The translations under genes were made by a program, and so were the position numbers. A model generated the notes under the pieces. That model searched no databases, was not told the DNA's origin, and worked only from the letters and a program-made list of their open reading frames with translations. This document shows positions 46,331-54,419 of a stretch of DNA of 64,000 nt, piece by piece. The DNA lies in NCBI GenBank assembly GCA_021791495.1, contig JAJYWN010000067.1:1-64000 (forward strand), in the 5' to 3' direction. Source of the stretch: Bacillota bacterium (GTDB lineage: Bacteria > Bacillota > Sulfobacillia > JAJYWN01). Positions within the stretch are counted from its first letter, which is position 1; each line of letters begins with the position of its first letter.

Positions 46331-46783
46331 CTAGTCCGTCAGTCCCTTGACACTCATGTCGCCGGTTTTGGCGTCCAAGACATGGCAGGCGTTGCAGTAG
46401 GCCTTCTTGCTTTCGGTAAAGTTCTTACTGTTCAGGTGGATAGGGTGGACCACCACGGCAAGCCTGGCCGGCTTGGCGCCAATGGGTGCGTCCGTCTTGT
46501 GGCAGGTCACGCACGTGTTGACCGTGGCGTCAGCGGGCAGGGTCGGGTGGCTGGCCACTTTCTTGACCTCGGCCGAGAGGGTGTAGTCCTTATCCCCAGA
46601 TTTCACATGGCAGCTGGCGCAACCGTTCGGCGCGGGGTCGGGCGGCGGGATCTGCACCACCTGGACCTCCTTTGGAACTTCGACGATCTTCTCCCTGGTG
46701 CAGGCCGCGCCGGCAAAGGCGGTCAGCAGCAACACCAGGGTCAGGACCAGCCAAAAGGCGGCACTCCGAGCGGATAATCGCAA
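46331..46783 (-). CDS. Triheme c-type cytochrome lipoprotein-like protein
   Basis: Signal peptide with lipobox-like AFAGAAC; three CxxCH motifs (CASCH, CVTCH, CNACH) plus additional His residues. Confidence 0.8.
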   Translation of the reverse strand: MRLSARSAAFWLVLTLVLLLTAFAGAACTREKIVEVPKEVQVVQIPPPDPAPNGCASCHVKSGDKDYTLSAEVKKVASHPTLPADATVNTCVTCHKTDAPIGAKPARLAVVVHPIHLNSKNFTESKKAYCNACHVLDAKTGDMSVKGLTD

Positions 46784-49198: not shown

Positions 49199-51010
49199 AT
49201 GGACCAAGAGATCCATCAGGGTAGCAGAGATAGGAATGGCCGCGTCGGGAATGCCTCCCGCGCTGGGCGCCGCCGGCTCCGTGCCATCATGGCCGGTCTG
49301 GTCATCCTTGTGGCGGCTTCCGGTGCCCTTCTGTGGGCATCGTTCCATCGTTACCCAGTCGCTTCCGGGCAACTAACAGCCGGATACGAGGAACCCATCG
49401 CCAGCTTGGACCCCATCCGGCTGGAAGGAGTGTCTCCCGGGGCCAACGTAGCCGTCTCGTCGCTGATCTTCGAGACGCTTGTGGTCAAGGGCGTGAACGG
49501 CGAGATCCTCCCCGGTTTGGCCGAGACCTGGCGGGTCTCTCCGGACGGGCGCGAGATCCGCTTCCGCCTGGCCGCCGGACGGCGGTTCTCGGATGGCACC
49601 CCCGTTGATGCCGCGGCGGTCAAGGCTTCGCTTCAGCGCCTTCCGACCTCTTCCTCGGCCGGCCAGGGAGGGACTGGCGCGGGCGGAACGGGCGCCGCCG
49701 GAAAGAGCGGGGCGGGTATGGCCGCGGCTCCCAACACCGAGACTCCATCGCCAGTGACCGTGGGTCTCGGCCCGCTGACCGACATCGTGGTGGAGAAGCC
49801 GCGCCAGTTTGTTCTAAGGTTCTCCGAACCTTACCCGGCAGTGTGGTCCGTCCTGGCCGGCCCAGGGGCGGCCATCGTTCGCCCGAGCCCCGGCGAAGTG
49901 GCCGGCCTGGCCGGTTCCGGCCCCTACCGGCTTGAGAAATGGGACAGCGACGGGACTATCACCCTTGCCGCCAAGTCCACGCCGCCCCGTGGCTTCGTCT
50001 CGGCCTTCATCGGCCAGGGGCCGTCCGCCTCCGCCTCGGCTTCGGCCCCGGTCACCCCCACCTCAGGCCCCGCCCGGTACTGGCGCGCCCTCACCGGACG
50101 CGGGTCCGGCCGGCCGGCCAAAGTGGTCTTCCAGCGTTTCGCCGACGCCCAGGCTCTGGAAGCGGCGCTGCGGAAGGCCTCCATCGCCTTGTCCTACCCG
50201 GCTGCCGGAGACGAACCGTCTCCCGGCGCCGCCTCGGCTACATCCTTCCTTCGGTCCAGCGATGAGCTGTTCTATCTGGGTTTCAACGTGGCGTCCGGCC
50301 TCTTCCACGACCCGGCGCCGCGTCAGGCCGCCGCGTCGGCCGTCAACCGCGCCTCCTTGGTGAAGACGGTCTTCCCGGGCCGCGCCGTCCCCAGCGACCA
50401 CCTCTGGCCGGACTTGTCCCAGTCGTCTGGAACGCCGGGGCCGGGGGCCGGTCAGCGCAGCTTCTATAGAGAGGACCCGGCGGCGGCCAAACAGCTTCTG
50501 AACGGGAAGACGCCCCTGGACGTCGAGATCCTTACGGTCCGGTCCCGGGATGCCTTGAATCTGGCAAAGGCGGTGGCGGCGCAGCTTGACGCCGCGGGGT
50601 TCCGCGCCAAGTTCACCGCCCTTGACGGCGCGACCCTCTTCCGGCGCTTGGAGGCGGGACAGTTTCAGGCCTTCGTGCTGTCCTTCCAATGGCCGGACCC
50701 AGGCATCCTCTACGACTTGCTGCATTCCTCCCGAACGGGCCAGACCAACCGCACCGGCTACGCCAACCCTCAGGCCGACGCACAGTTAGACGCGCTGGTG
50801 ACCAAGGTGGACCCCGCCGCCCGCCGCCGGGCGCTGCTCGGCGTTGAGTCGGTGGTGTTGAAGGACGCCCCCTGGGTCCCTCTGGTGGCCTTGGAGCGGT
50901 CCATCGTCACGGGCGCCACGCCCACCTGGACCGACCTGGCCTTCGGGGCCCACGGCGAGCTTTGGCTGGACCTGTCCCGGCCGGCAGAGGCATCTCCGTC
51001 CGCGCGCTGA
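49199..51010 (+). CDS. Extracellular solute-binding protein family 5 (peptide/nickel ABC transporter type), orphan
   Basis: N-terminal TM anchor, SLDPIRLEGVSPGANVAVSSLIFETLV...GLAETWRVSPDGREIRFRLAAGRRFSDGTPVDAAAVKASLQRL; no permease or ATPase gene in the window. Confidence 0.85.
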   Translation: MDQEIHQGSRDRNGRVGNASRAGRRRLRAIMAGLVILVAASGALLWASFHRYPVASGQLTAGYEEPIASLDPIRLEGVSPGANVAVSSLIFETLVVKGVNGEILPGLAETWRVSPDGREIRFRLAAGRRFSDGTPVDAAAVKASLQRLPTSSSAGQGGTGAGGTGAAGKSGAGMAAAPNTETPSPVTVGLGPLTDIVVEKPRQFVLRFSEPYPAVWSVLAGPGAAIVRPSPGEVAGLAGSGPYRLEKWDSDGTITLAAKSTPPRGFVSAFIGQGPSASASASAPVTPTSGPARYWRALTGRGSGRPAKVVFQRFADAQALEAALRKASIALSYPAAGDEPSPGAASATSFLRSSDELFYLGFNVASGLFHDPAPRQAAASAVNRASLVKTVFPGRAVPSDHLWPDLSQSSGTPGPGAGQRSFYREDPAAAKQLLNGKTPLDVEILTVRSRDALNLAKAVAAQLDAAGFRAKFTALDGATLFRRLEAGQFQAFVLSFQWPDPGILYDLLHSSRTGQTNRTGYANPQADAQLDALVTKVDPAARRRALLGVESVVLKDAPWVPLVALERSIVTGATPTWTDLAFGAHGELWLDLSRPAEASPSAR

Positions 51011-51091: not shown

Positions 51092-52981
51092 GTGTTTTGC
51101 GGGAGGGATGCGCCGTTGGCACAATACGAGCGGATCGTGGCTACGGACGTCGGTAGCACGACCACGAAAGCCATCCTCATTGAACGGCGGGGCAGGGAAT
51201 ACCGCCTGACGGCCCGGGCGGAGGCGCCCACGACCGTCGAAGCGCCCCATGAGGATGTCATGATCGGCGTCCGGAACGCCTTTCGCCAGCTTGAGCAGGA
51301 GTCCCACCGGAAGTTCCTGAATGATGGGGGCGACCTGATCACCCCGTCCCAAGGGGAGGACGGCGCCGACATCTACGTTTCGTCTTCCAGCGCCGGCGGG
51401 GGCCTGCAAATGGCCGTGGCCGGCCTCATCAAGACCATGACGGCCGAAAGCGCTCACCGCACCGCTCTCGGCGCCGGGGCCATCGTCGCGGACGTTATTT
51501 CGTTGGACGACGCGAGGCAGGTGGTGGAGCGCATCCGCCGTCTGAAGGAACTTCGCCCCGACATGATCCTCCTGTCCGGTGGCACCGACGAGGGCCAGAT
51601 CAGCCACGTCGCTTCCCTGGCCGAATACATCGCCGCTTCGAGCCCCAAGCCGCGTTTGGGGGGCGACTACCGTGTCCCCGTCATCTACGCCGGGAACATC
51701 AAGGCCCGCGACTACGTCACGGAGACCTTGACCGAGGCCAACATGGAAGTCCATGTGGTGGATAACATCCGGCCCACCCTCGATAAGGAAGTCTTGGGCC
51801 CGGCCCGCGCCGAAATCCACCGCCTTTTCCTCGAACACGTCATGGCCCGCGCTCCCGGCTACCAACGCCTGGTGCAGTGGACGGCCGGCCACATCCAACC
51901 CACCCCCATGGCTGTAGGCAAGATGATGCTTCTCCTGGCCCAGCGCCGCAAGGTCAATATCCTGGGCGTAGACATCGGGGGCGCCACCACCGACGTATTC
52001 TCGGTGATGGACGGGGTCTTTAACCGCACCGTTTCCGCGAACCTGGGCATGAGCTATAGCCTGTCGAATGTGTTTGTGGAGGCCGGCGCCAGCCAGATCA
52101 GCCGTTGGGTCCCCTTCGAACTGACGGAAGGGGAAATGCGGAACTGGCACTCGAACAAGATGATCCGGCCGACCACCCTTCCGCAGACCGGAGAGGACCT
52201 TGTCCTGGAGCATGCTTTCGCCCGCGAGGCGATGCGACTCTCACTGGTTCACCATAAGACGTTGGCTCGTGGGCTGAAGGGCGTCCGGCAGGAGCGAGAT
52301 ATCGGCGATGTGTTCAACCAGACCGGCACCGGCGAGACCCTCATCGCCATGAACAAGGTGAACATGATCATCGGCAGCGGCGGAGTGGTAAGTAACGCCC
52401 CGCGGCGGGCGCAGGCCGCTCTCTTACTGGTCGACTCGTTCCAGCCGGAAGGACTCTGCCGCCTTTATGTGGATAGCATCTTCATGATGCCGCACCTGGG
52501 CGTGCTTTCGGAAGTGGACCCCGAAATCGCCCTGGAGGTTTTCGAAAAGGACTGCCTGGTACCACTGGGCGCCTGCGTCTCTCCAACGGGCAAGCCCGGC
52601 CCCGGCGGGTTCCTAGGAGCAGTGAACCTCATCCTGCCGGATGGACGGGCGGTGGAGGAACATCTGATCGCCGGTCAGCTGAAAGTCATCCCCTTGCCGG
52701 CGGGCCAGACCGCGCGGATCGTGGTCTCCCCGGTCCGTGGGGTGAACGTCGGGGCCGGTCCCGGCCGGCGTCTGGAAAGCCTGGTGGAAGGGGGAGAGGT
52801 CGGCGTAATCCTTGATGGCCGTGGCCGGCCCATCGAGTTCCCCGCCGACGCCGGTGCCAGACTGGCGAGGGTGGTCTCCTGGGGGCGGGAGTCGCGCGCC
52901 TACGGTAACGGGGACGAACTGTCCGGTGAGGGTGCGAACCAAGGCGAAACGGGCCGGAGTCTTACGGCGGGGGTGAACTGA
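51092..52981 (+). CDS. GlmL/MutL-family ASKHA ATPase (glutamate mutase L-like)
   Basis: ATDVGSTTTKAILIE, VSSSSAGGGLQMAVAGL, ILLSGGTDEGQ, ILGVDIGGATTDVFSVMDG, IIGSGGVVSNAP. Confidence 0.88.
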   Translation: MFCGRDAPLAQYERIVATDVGSTTTKAILIERRGREYRLTARAEAPTTVEAPHEDVMIGVRNAFRQLEQESHRKFLNDGGDLITPSQGEDGADIYVSSSSAGGGLQMAVAGLIKTMTAESAHRTALGAGAIVADVISLDDARQVVERIRRLKELRPDMILLSGGTDEGQISHVASLAEYIAASSPKPRLGGDYRVPVIYAGNIKARDYVTETLTEANMEVHVVDNIRPTLDKEVLGPARAEIHRLFLEHVMARAPGYQRLVQWTAGHIQPTPMAVGKMMLLLAQRRKVNILGVDIGGATTDVFSVMDGVFNRTVSANLGMSYSLSNVFVEAGASQISRWVPFELTEGEMRNWHSNKMIRPTTLPQTGEDLVLEHAFAREAMRLSLVHHKTLARGLKGVRQERDIGDVFNQTGTGETLIAMNKVNMIIGSGGVVSNAPRRAQAALLLVDSFQPEGLCRLYVDSIFMMPHLGVLSEVDPEIALEVFEKDCLVPLGACVSPTGKPGPGGFLGAVNLILPDGRAVEEHLIAGQLKVIPLPAGQTARIVVSPVRGVNVGAGPGRRLESLVEGGEVGVILDGRGRPIEFPADAGARLARVVSWGRESRAYGNGDELSGEGANQGETGRSLTAGVN

Positions 52982-52982
52982 A

Positions 52983-54419
52983 ATGGCAATGCCGGCGGAA
53001 ACCCACGTTCTAGAGCGGACCACCATTCGGAAGGAGCGGCTTCTGGCCCTCCCCGGCGATGTTCTGGTGACGCCCGGTCAACGAGTGGACCCCGATACCG
53101 TCATCGCGAAGGCGGAGGAACTACCGGGAGAGCCATACGTCATCGATTTGAAGGCGGAGCTGCGTACCTCTCTGACCCCGGAAATGGTGGACCGCACCGT
53201 CGTGGTGAAGGTGGGGGACAAGGTCAGTGGCGGCGACACTCTGGCGCGGTATACCCGGGGCTTCCTGGGGGAAGTGTTGGTGGTGCGCTGTCCGGTGAAC
53301 GGTACGGTCGAGTTCATCTCGCGATCGTCGGCCCGCATCTTGATTAGAGAAGACCCCCGTTCGGCCGAACCGGTCCATATCGTGTCGGTAGCCAAGGAAC
53401 TGGACATCTGGGCCGCGAGCCTGCGGATGTACATGCGGTTCAAGGAAGGCGACGAGGTCAAGCAGGGGATGGCCCTGGCGGCCGCTCCAGGCGGCGTCGC
53501 CTCGATGATCTACTCCTACTCCCCTGTGAGCGGTATCATCGAGAAGGTATGCACGAAAACGGGGACCGTCACCATCGTCCGCCCCATCAAGGCGACGGTG
53601 GTCGATGCCTATATGCCGGGCGTGGTGGCGGAGATCGTGGCCGACCGCGGCGCGGTAGTGGAGACCGCCGGCTCGGTGGTGCAGGGCGTCTTTGGTATCG
53701 GTTTTGAGAACTACGGAACCTTGAAGGTGCTGGCCACCAATCCGGCGGACGAGATCGGGGCGGACCGCGTGCCGGACAACTGCAACGGTCTGGTCTTGGT
53801 AGCCGGGGCGCACATAAGTTACGAAGCTTTGCGGAAAGCCCTGGACGGCGGGGCTACCGGCATCATCAGCGGCGGCGCCGACAGCGGCGATCTGGTGAAA
53901 CTCACCGGACAGGAGATCGGCGTCGGCATTACCGGCCAGGAAGATATCCCGATCACGGTTGTCCTGACGGAGGGATTCGGCCACATGGCCATGGCCCGGA
54001 GGATTTTCGATCTCCTGGCGCGGGCCGACGGCCGGAAGGTATCTTTGAACGGTTCGACGCAGGTAAGGGCGGGCGTCATCCGTCCTGAGGTTGTCGTCCC
54101 CGAACCGCAACCGGCGGGGGAGACGGAGCAGGGGATTCCGGCCACCAGTACCAAAACCGACGGGGCGCCGGCGTCCGGGTCCGGCGAAAAGCCCGTGGTG
54201 GCGTTGAACGAGGCCTATGTCGGATCTCGGGTGCGTGTGGTCGCCAAGCCCTATTTCGGGCTGTGGGGCCAGGTCGAGGGTCTGCCTGGCGGCAGACAAC
54301 GCGTCGAAAGTGAAATCCAGGTCCGCACGGCGCAGGTACGTTTGGATGACGGCCGGCTGGTGACTGTTCCTGACGCGAACCTGGAAATCCACAGGGAAGA
54401 CGGCGGCATTTTGCACTGA
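52983..54419 (+). CDS. Uncharacterised protein with barrel-sandwich/KOW-like segments, paired with GlmL-like gene
   Basis: 478 aa ORF 2 nt after the GlmL-like stop; LPGDVLVTPGQRVDPDTVIA, VVKVGDKVSGGDTLARYTRGFLGEVLVVRCPVNGTV, C-terminal VVAKPYFGLWGQVEGLPG (KOW-like). Confidence 0.75.
   Translation: MAMPAETHVLERTTIRKERLLALPGDVLVTPGQRVDPDTVIAKAEELPGEPYVIDLKAELRTSLTPEMVDRTVVVKVGDKVSGGDTLARYTRGFLGEVLVVRCPVNGTVEFISRSSARILIREDPRSAEPVHIVSVAKELDIWAASLRMYMRFKEGDEVKQGMALAAAPGGVASMIYSYSPVSGIIEKVCTKTGTVTIVRPIKATVVDAYMPGVVAEIVADRGAVVETAGSVVQGVFGIGFENYGTLKVLATNPADEIGADRVPDNCNGLVLVAGAHISYEALRKALDGGATGIISGGADSGDLVKLTGQEIGVGITGQEDIPITVVLTEGFGHMAMARRIFDLLARADGRKVSLNGSTQVRAGVIRPEVVVPEPQPAGETEQGIPATSTKTDGAPASGSGEKPVVALNEAYVGSRVRVVAKPYFGLWGQVEGLPGGRQRVESEIQVRTAQVRLDDGRLVTVPDANLEIHREDGGILH

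Follow-up and report, generated by a model that had tools for sequence, protein, structure and literature searches.

At positions 51,092 to 54,419 of the window, the 64,000-nucleotide stretch of contig JAJYWN010000067.1 analysed here (from a Bacillota bacterium of the Sulfobacillia), a gene for an ASKHA ATPase of the MutL family is followed by a gene for a partner protein, PART. Sequence comparison with related genomes shows that this genome has five paralogous pairs of this kind, which form the cytosolic half of an undescribed system of wide distribution; the other half consists of four membrane proteins in a module, c4-c3-c5-c2. We put at about one half the probability that a small set of such ATPase/adaptor pairs powers or assembles many membrane modules, which would most likely move amino-acid, amide or peptide-like compounds. 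The composition of the system is well supported; that the module is a transporter, probably of amino-acid or amide compounds, we infer; that a pair is shared among modules is speculative.

The ATPase gene runs from a GTG start at 51092 to a stop that ends at 52981, and the PART gene from an ATG at 52983 to 54419; checking the open reading frames places them 1 nt apart (AAC TGA A ATG). A preliminary description of this DNA had the two genes, the 629-aa GlmL/MutL-type ATPase and the 478-aa reading frame after it, at the right coordinates, and had misjudged the gap as 2 nt. PF13941 covers the whole MutL domain with 420 bits, against a curated cut-off of 27, and all ASKHA nucleotide motifs are intact. 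The pair is made up as follows:

51092..52981, plus strand: paired-type MutL ASKHA ATPase of 629 aa (PF13941 core and C-terminal domain), a member of the paired clade
51146..51169, plus strand: ASKHA phosphate-1 motif DVGSTTTK, residues 19-26, as read; a phosphate-1-like motif is found in 98 of 100 paired MutLs
51971..51994, plus strand: ASKHA phosphate-2 motif DIGGATTD, residues 294-301; the motif is found in 91 of 100 paired MutLs
52373..52405, plus strand: putative adenosine motif GSGGVVSNAPR, residues 428-438, as read
52556..52978, plus strand: MutL C-terminal domain of about 125-140 aa, placed by model end positions, which paired MutLs have and GlmL/Or-4 types lack
52983..54419, plus strand: PART, 478 aa
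52983..53747, plus strand: barrel-sandwich-like beta domain region of PART, about residues 1-255, placed by the strand pattern of the model and by RnfC_N, NQRA_N and biotinyl-lipoyl matches
53775..54107, plus strand: alpha/beta domain of PART with the family signature TEGFG...GSTQ.RAG.RPE, about residues 265-375, the most conserved segment, placed by the model
54219..54392, plus strand: KOW-like C-terminal domain of PART, about residues 413-470, after a low-confidence linker, placed by SPT5/NusG matches and Foldseek

PART matches no family over its full length. A profile search returns weak matches to the barrel-sandwich families DUF2118, RnfC_N and NQRA_N, and the C-terminus matches the KOW domains of SPT5/NusG by sequence. 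The AlphaFold2 model, built on an alignment of 109 relatives, has a mean predicted local distance difference test score (pLDDT) of 90 and begins with a barrel-sandwich region rich in beta strands, followed by an alpha/beta domain and, after a linker that is disordered, by a KOW domain at the C-terminus; the last of these overlays the KOW domain of SPT5 with a template-modelling score (TM-score) of up to 0.85 (Foldseek). Matches and model thus both bear out the preliminary view of a barrel-sandwich-like and KOW-like protein outside the known full-length families. In the sequence and beta pattern of its barrel sandwich PART is like RnfC_N, NqrA_N, DUF2118 and the biotinyl/lipoyl carriers; it differs from the biotin/lipoyl carriers in having no conserved attachment lysine in the hairpin, from RnfC and NqrA in scoring 17 bits against full-length cut-offs of 246 and 450 and in conserving no iron-sulphur cysteines, and from barrel-sandwich proteins in its extra alpha/beta and KOW domains. 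A role as cofactor carrier, which the preliminary description had entertained, finds no support: over the 109 sequences the best lysine column reaches 80%, with none invariant, and the best cysteine column 46%. No transmembrane segment is predicted in 103 of the 109.

A scan with 14 PART sequences as queries found at least 568 encoding stretches, of which the best 79 loci were analysed. These best loci span Bacillota, Cloacimonadota, Armatimonadota, Fermentibacteria, Neomarinimicrobiota, WOR-3, Hydrothermae, Gemmatimonadetes, Poribacteria, Planctomycetes, Bathyarchaeota, Culexarchaeum, Nitrososphaeria and others, that is, over a dozen phyla of both Bacteria and Archaea. A MutL gene lies immediately upstream of 74 of their 90 PART reading frames (two more are cut by a contig end), and the recurrence of homologous pairs in the same gene order across bacteria and archaea takes the pairing far beyond chance. 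The two genes do therefore form a unit, as had been proposed; the companion proposal, that the pair is orphan and self-contained, fails on the five pairs of this genome and on the DUF6754 membrane module described below. A plasmid- or phage-borne system was dropped from consideration, PART not having been found in plasmids nor c5 in phages.

Clustering of the genes around the pairs yields recurrent neighbours c4, c3, c5 and c2, together with the small accessory genes c1 and c6. The order c4-c3-c5-c2 is constant (52 runs counted), both in operons of the type c6-c1-MutL-PART-c4-c3-c5-c2, such as locus L110 from a Fermentibacteria genome, and in those of the window's class, c6-c4-c3-c5-c2-MutL-PART-c1-MutL-PART; in this class the 50 DUF6754 genes examined are accompanied by c3 in 50 cases, by c5 in 50 and by c2 in 49. 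The protein c4 is a member of DUF6754 (PF20539; 402 bits for the L110 protein), a family of unknown function, to which this analysis adds the constant partners c3, c5, c2 and MutL/PART. No credible family in Pfam or NCBIfam was found for c1, c2, c3 or c5, and a profile search gave no credible PDB relative for c2 to c5; c2, c3, c5 and PART all lack a full-length family. The earlier suggestion of an undescribed system holds. Among the papers searched, none mentions DUF6754 or PF20539 by name or has PF13941 together with MutL.

Both c4 and c5 have a soluble domain between two transmembrane segments, and these domains carry highly conserved polar residues; c3 mostly has 4-6 transmembrane segments and c2 is polytopic. 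The model of c5 (pLDDT 96.6) places an alpha/beta domain between the two transmembrane helices; its fold could not be assigned, since no Foldseek match has an E value better than 0.015 and no TM-score is above 0.45. For a shared origin of c4 and c5, or of c2 and c3, hhalign gives a probability under 2%, no conserved cysteine or metal-ligand set is found in c2, c3 or c5, and the core operon genes match no ABC (ATP-binding cassette) family in profile searches. An anti-phage defence system was rejected, as PADLOC models match none of seven proteins. In several phyla c4 has long extra N-terminal regions before DUF6754 (L091, of 908 aa; L126, L096, L088) which have no Pfam match; in some of these extended proteins the start looks, by eye, like a signal segment with a stretch resembling fibronectin III.

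Pair and module are also inherited together. With genomes treated as independent, ignoring shared ancestry, PART occurs in 29 of 61 relatives and DUF6754 in 24, all of them within the 29 (Fisher p = 2e-12; 0 of the 32 PART-less relatives have DUF6754), and among 249 genomes of the phylum PART occurs in 19, DUF6754 in 20 and both in 18 (p = 3e-24); of 44 genomes from many phyla that encode PART, 41 likewise have DUF6754. The operon linkage, repeated in both domains of life, speaks against mere hitch-hiking. By adjacency and co-inheritance, the MutL-PART pair of the window belongs to the DUF6754-module system, with its module in trans. The neighbourhood survey that the preliminary description had proposed finds MutL and its partner together without mutases, in many genomes beside the DUF6754 module. 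Modules often outnumber pairs: this genome has 7 modules and a Candidatus Fermentithermobacillus genome 14 DUF6754 matches; the 3.8-Mb relative G016 has 27 DUF6754 modules against about 6 pairs. This expansion in G016 is extreme; its 27 places (L155-L174) are spread across the contigs, and c3-c5-c2 accompany DUF6754 at most of them.

The paired MutLs appear to be a clade apart from GlmL and Or-4, with which they share the ASKHA core and nucleotide motifs. The window MutL scores below all three NCBIfam cut-offs (NF040745, NF040744 and TIGR01319; 236 of 475, 213 of 600, the Or-4 cut-off, and 173 of 204), and in a quick maximum-likelihood tree 49 paired and 19 GlmL/Or-4-type sequences separate on one branch with a support of 100 (Shimodaira-Hasegawa-like approximate likelihood ratio test, SH-aLRT). 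On a 609-position model of paired MutLs, the majority of GlmL-type proteins reach no further than about position 480, whereas paired ones continue to about 605; paired MutLs thus have a C-terminal domain of their own. GlmL and Or-4 go with a B12 mutase; the paired MutL instead goes with PART and the membrane module. A further arrangement is seen at L214:2121-5855 (minus strand), where a 1245-aa protein has an N-terminal B12-binding-like domain (a sub-threshold Pfam match) and a MutL domain matched over its first two thirds alone. Frames of about 1220-1360 aa resembling this fusion also occur in G018, G021, G029, G038 and G047; the L214-type protein looks like a mutase/reactivase-type fusion, distinct from paired MutLs.

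Six MutL genes, intact or split, are present in the genome, which comprises 4.2 Mb in 81 contigs; of these genes, five are tied to a PART paralogue and one is an Or-4. The five pairs lie in the window (contig C59), across the end of C56 and the start of C7 (contiguity over the contig break being presumed), at C7:3.5-6.5 kb, at C7:57-60 kb, and on C18, where an assembly gap of ten consecutive N splits the MutL gene. The sixth MutL, on contig 28, passes the Or-4 cut-off of 600 with 612.7 bits and has OraE, OrtB, OrtA, Ord and an Orr-like racemase as neighbours; it is the cognate Or-4 of a D-ornithine degradation (ornithine aminomutase) operon. The E subunit of glutamate mutase (PF06368) is found nowhere in the genome, in line with the earlier claim of no glutamate mutase link, and among the 61 relatives there is one clear glutamate mutase, in G037.

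Varied catabolic genes lie beside the modules: amidohydrolases, creatininases, M20 peptidases, beta-lactamase-like hydrolases, aminotransferases and one gamma-glutamyltranspeptidase. Twelve of 100 modules have an Amidohydro_3 gene no more than 6 kb away, where 4.2 would be expected (binomial p = 0.001). In this genome, DUF6754 modules at L152, L151 and L149 adjoin amidohydrolase, M20 peptidase, RraA-like and aldolase-like genes, as well as three creatininase-like and AstE/aspartoacylase-like genes, which are candidate clues to the substrate. At the Fermentibacteria-type loci L088, L092, L095, L100, L110, L116, L117 and L122, glycine-cleavage genes precede the MutL-PART-module operon (GcvT, GcvH and GcvPA/PB-like, named by eye from cluster sequences).

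From these parts we propose the following machine. As the sequences show, it consists of the MutL ATPase of the distinct clade, PART, often c1 and c6, and the four-protein membrane module in its fixed order; topology suggests that MutL and PART are cytosolic, with the soluble domain of c4 inside and that of c5 outside. MutL would cycle on ATP and PART, as an adaptor, would transmit the cycling to the membrane complex, which, more speculatively, would move compounds over the membrane. The reading as a transporter rests on a fixed membrane unit multiplied beside varied catabolic genes, as substrate-specific transporters are. A few pairs may serve many modules per cell, much as one energy-coupling factor (ECF) module serves many S-components; group II ECF transporters (e.g. 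PMC7755397), with a shared ATP-hydrolysing module for many membrane substrate modules, are a works-like analogy, the ATPase being an ABC ATPase there and an ASKHA ATPase here, and c2-c5 not being recognisable as EcfT or an S-component by Pfam or PDB profiles. The window pair itself would be a class-specific paralogue that left its module, and may either act in trans on the seven modules or have been redeployed to FtsX-type ABC transporters. The most far-reaching form of the proposal, in which Bacteria and Archaea would share a new class of primary active transporter whose energy comes from an ASKHA ATPase, of actin/Hsp70 fold, via a barrel-sandwich/KOW adaptor, a few shared pairs serving up to about 27 different four-subunit modules per cell, is tentative and on balance doubtful.

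Several observations weigh against a transporter powered by the pair. Known ASKHA ATPases are chaperones, reactivases, kinases or filaments, and we know of none that powers a transporter. No membrane subunit has a homologue of known function, and the module has no solute-binding protein. PART occurs without DUF6754 in a few genomes (5 of 29, 3 of 44 and 1 of 19), and in some genomes pairs outnumber modules, as in G046 with one module and about five pairs, so that part of the pairs have another role. There is no strict tie between pair and module, and no module lies close to the pair of the window. The amidohydrolase enrichment, finally, lends a transport or catabolic role modest support only.

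The main rival keeps a single machine and takes MutL/PART as an ATP-dependent assembly or reactivation chaperone, the membrane complex being an enzyme or sensor. The characterised relatives of MutL, as is well established, are reactivases of B12 enzymes, and the confidently modelled alpha/beta domain of c5 and the conserved polar residues of c4 and c5 look enzyme-like; the missing solute-binding subunit fits as well. We nevertheless consider it unlikely, since up to 27 paralogous modules per genome near varied catabolic genes suit substrate-specific carriers better, and an enzyme is also disfavoured because c2, c3 and c5 conserve neither a cysteine nor a set of metal ligands. MutL might instead be an ATP-dependent kinase or substrate activator at the membrane, in the manner of group translocation, the ASKHA subunits found in 5-oxoprolinase and acetophenone carboxylase being the analogy: Hydantoinase_A gives a further match to the window MutL, of 29 bits and located at the phosphate-2 motif, and ATP-dependent carboxylases/hydrolases include ASKHA subunits (PMC5214803). 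This match is confined to a motif common to ASKHA proteins, however, and the operons have no homologue of the catalytic B-subunit, so that we give the idea very little credence. Equally slight is the chance that the pair serves, in the way of GlmL or Or-4, as the reactivase of some B12-dependent mutase whose gene lies elsewhere. PF13941 membership and the ornithine aminomutase of this genome would favour it; the genome-wide search that had been proposed shows, however, that the sole mutase identified (OraE) has its own Or-4, whose model the window MutL fails, and G037 has no PART. Profile scores, tree (with the extra domain of the separate clade) and genome content together strongly disfavour such a reactivase, and the findings that the preliminary description had named as refuting its view did not turn up.

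The remaining rival concerns the surroundings of the window pair, which is flanked by a solute-binding gene (PF00496) and a dprA-topA block (names by eye):

49199..51010, plus strand: family-5 (peptide-type) solute-binding protein directly upstream of the pair, given for context (PF00496, 149 bits); in L043 and L046 a homologue likewise precedes the orthologous pair

Window-type pairs may be accessories of FtsX/MacB-type ABC transporters or of peptide importers, independent of DUF6754 modules. In L049-L053 the orthologous pair directly follows genes for an FtsX permease, an ABC ATPase and an FtsX permease (FtsX being confirmed by Pfam for L050 and L053), the pair of this genome at C7:57 kb lies inside an FtsX-type ABC operon, and the family-5 gene upstream of the pair in the window, L043 and L046 would suit an importer. 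MacB/FtsX-type transporters are thus gene neighbours of several window-type pairs, but ABC genes flank only some of them: the window pair and most orthologous loci have none adjacent, and DUF6754 modules, as possible partners, are present in the same genomes. PART, being mostly without a transmembrane segment, is moreover not a membrane-anchored adaptor like MacA. An ABC accessory independent of DUF6754 modules is on these grounds improbable; for the window-type pair, action in trans on the seven modules and redeployment to FtsX-type ABC systems are both compatible with the evidence.

At L018:3803-14898 (C7 53.8-64.9 kb) the operon is a double FtsX-type ABC operon, and the MutL-PART pair that interrupts it midway is divergent: its MutL sits on a very long branch, and the nucleotide motifs are altered. 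In the window itself, a rough scan for promoters and terminators at the pair gave nothing clearly above chance, and positions 46331-46783 (minus strand) encode a 150-aa lipoprotein-like reading frame with three CxxCH-type motifs, possibly a small multihaem cytochrome.

The system appears to have gone unnoticed because all 14 of 14 well-known control genomes lack DUF6754 and because its ATPase is labelled MutL/GlmL. What emerges is a conserved multi-gene membrane system of over a dozen phyla in both prokaryotic domains, of which one genome can carry as many as 27 copies. Should it prove to be a transporter, we would know of no earlier one driven by an ASKHA ATPase; transporter or not, DUF6754 gains a testable set of partners, and a MutL annotation without a mutase often marks a membrane machine.

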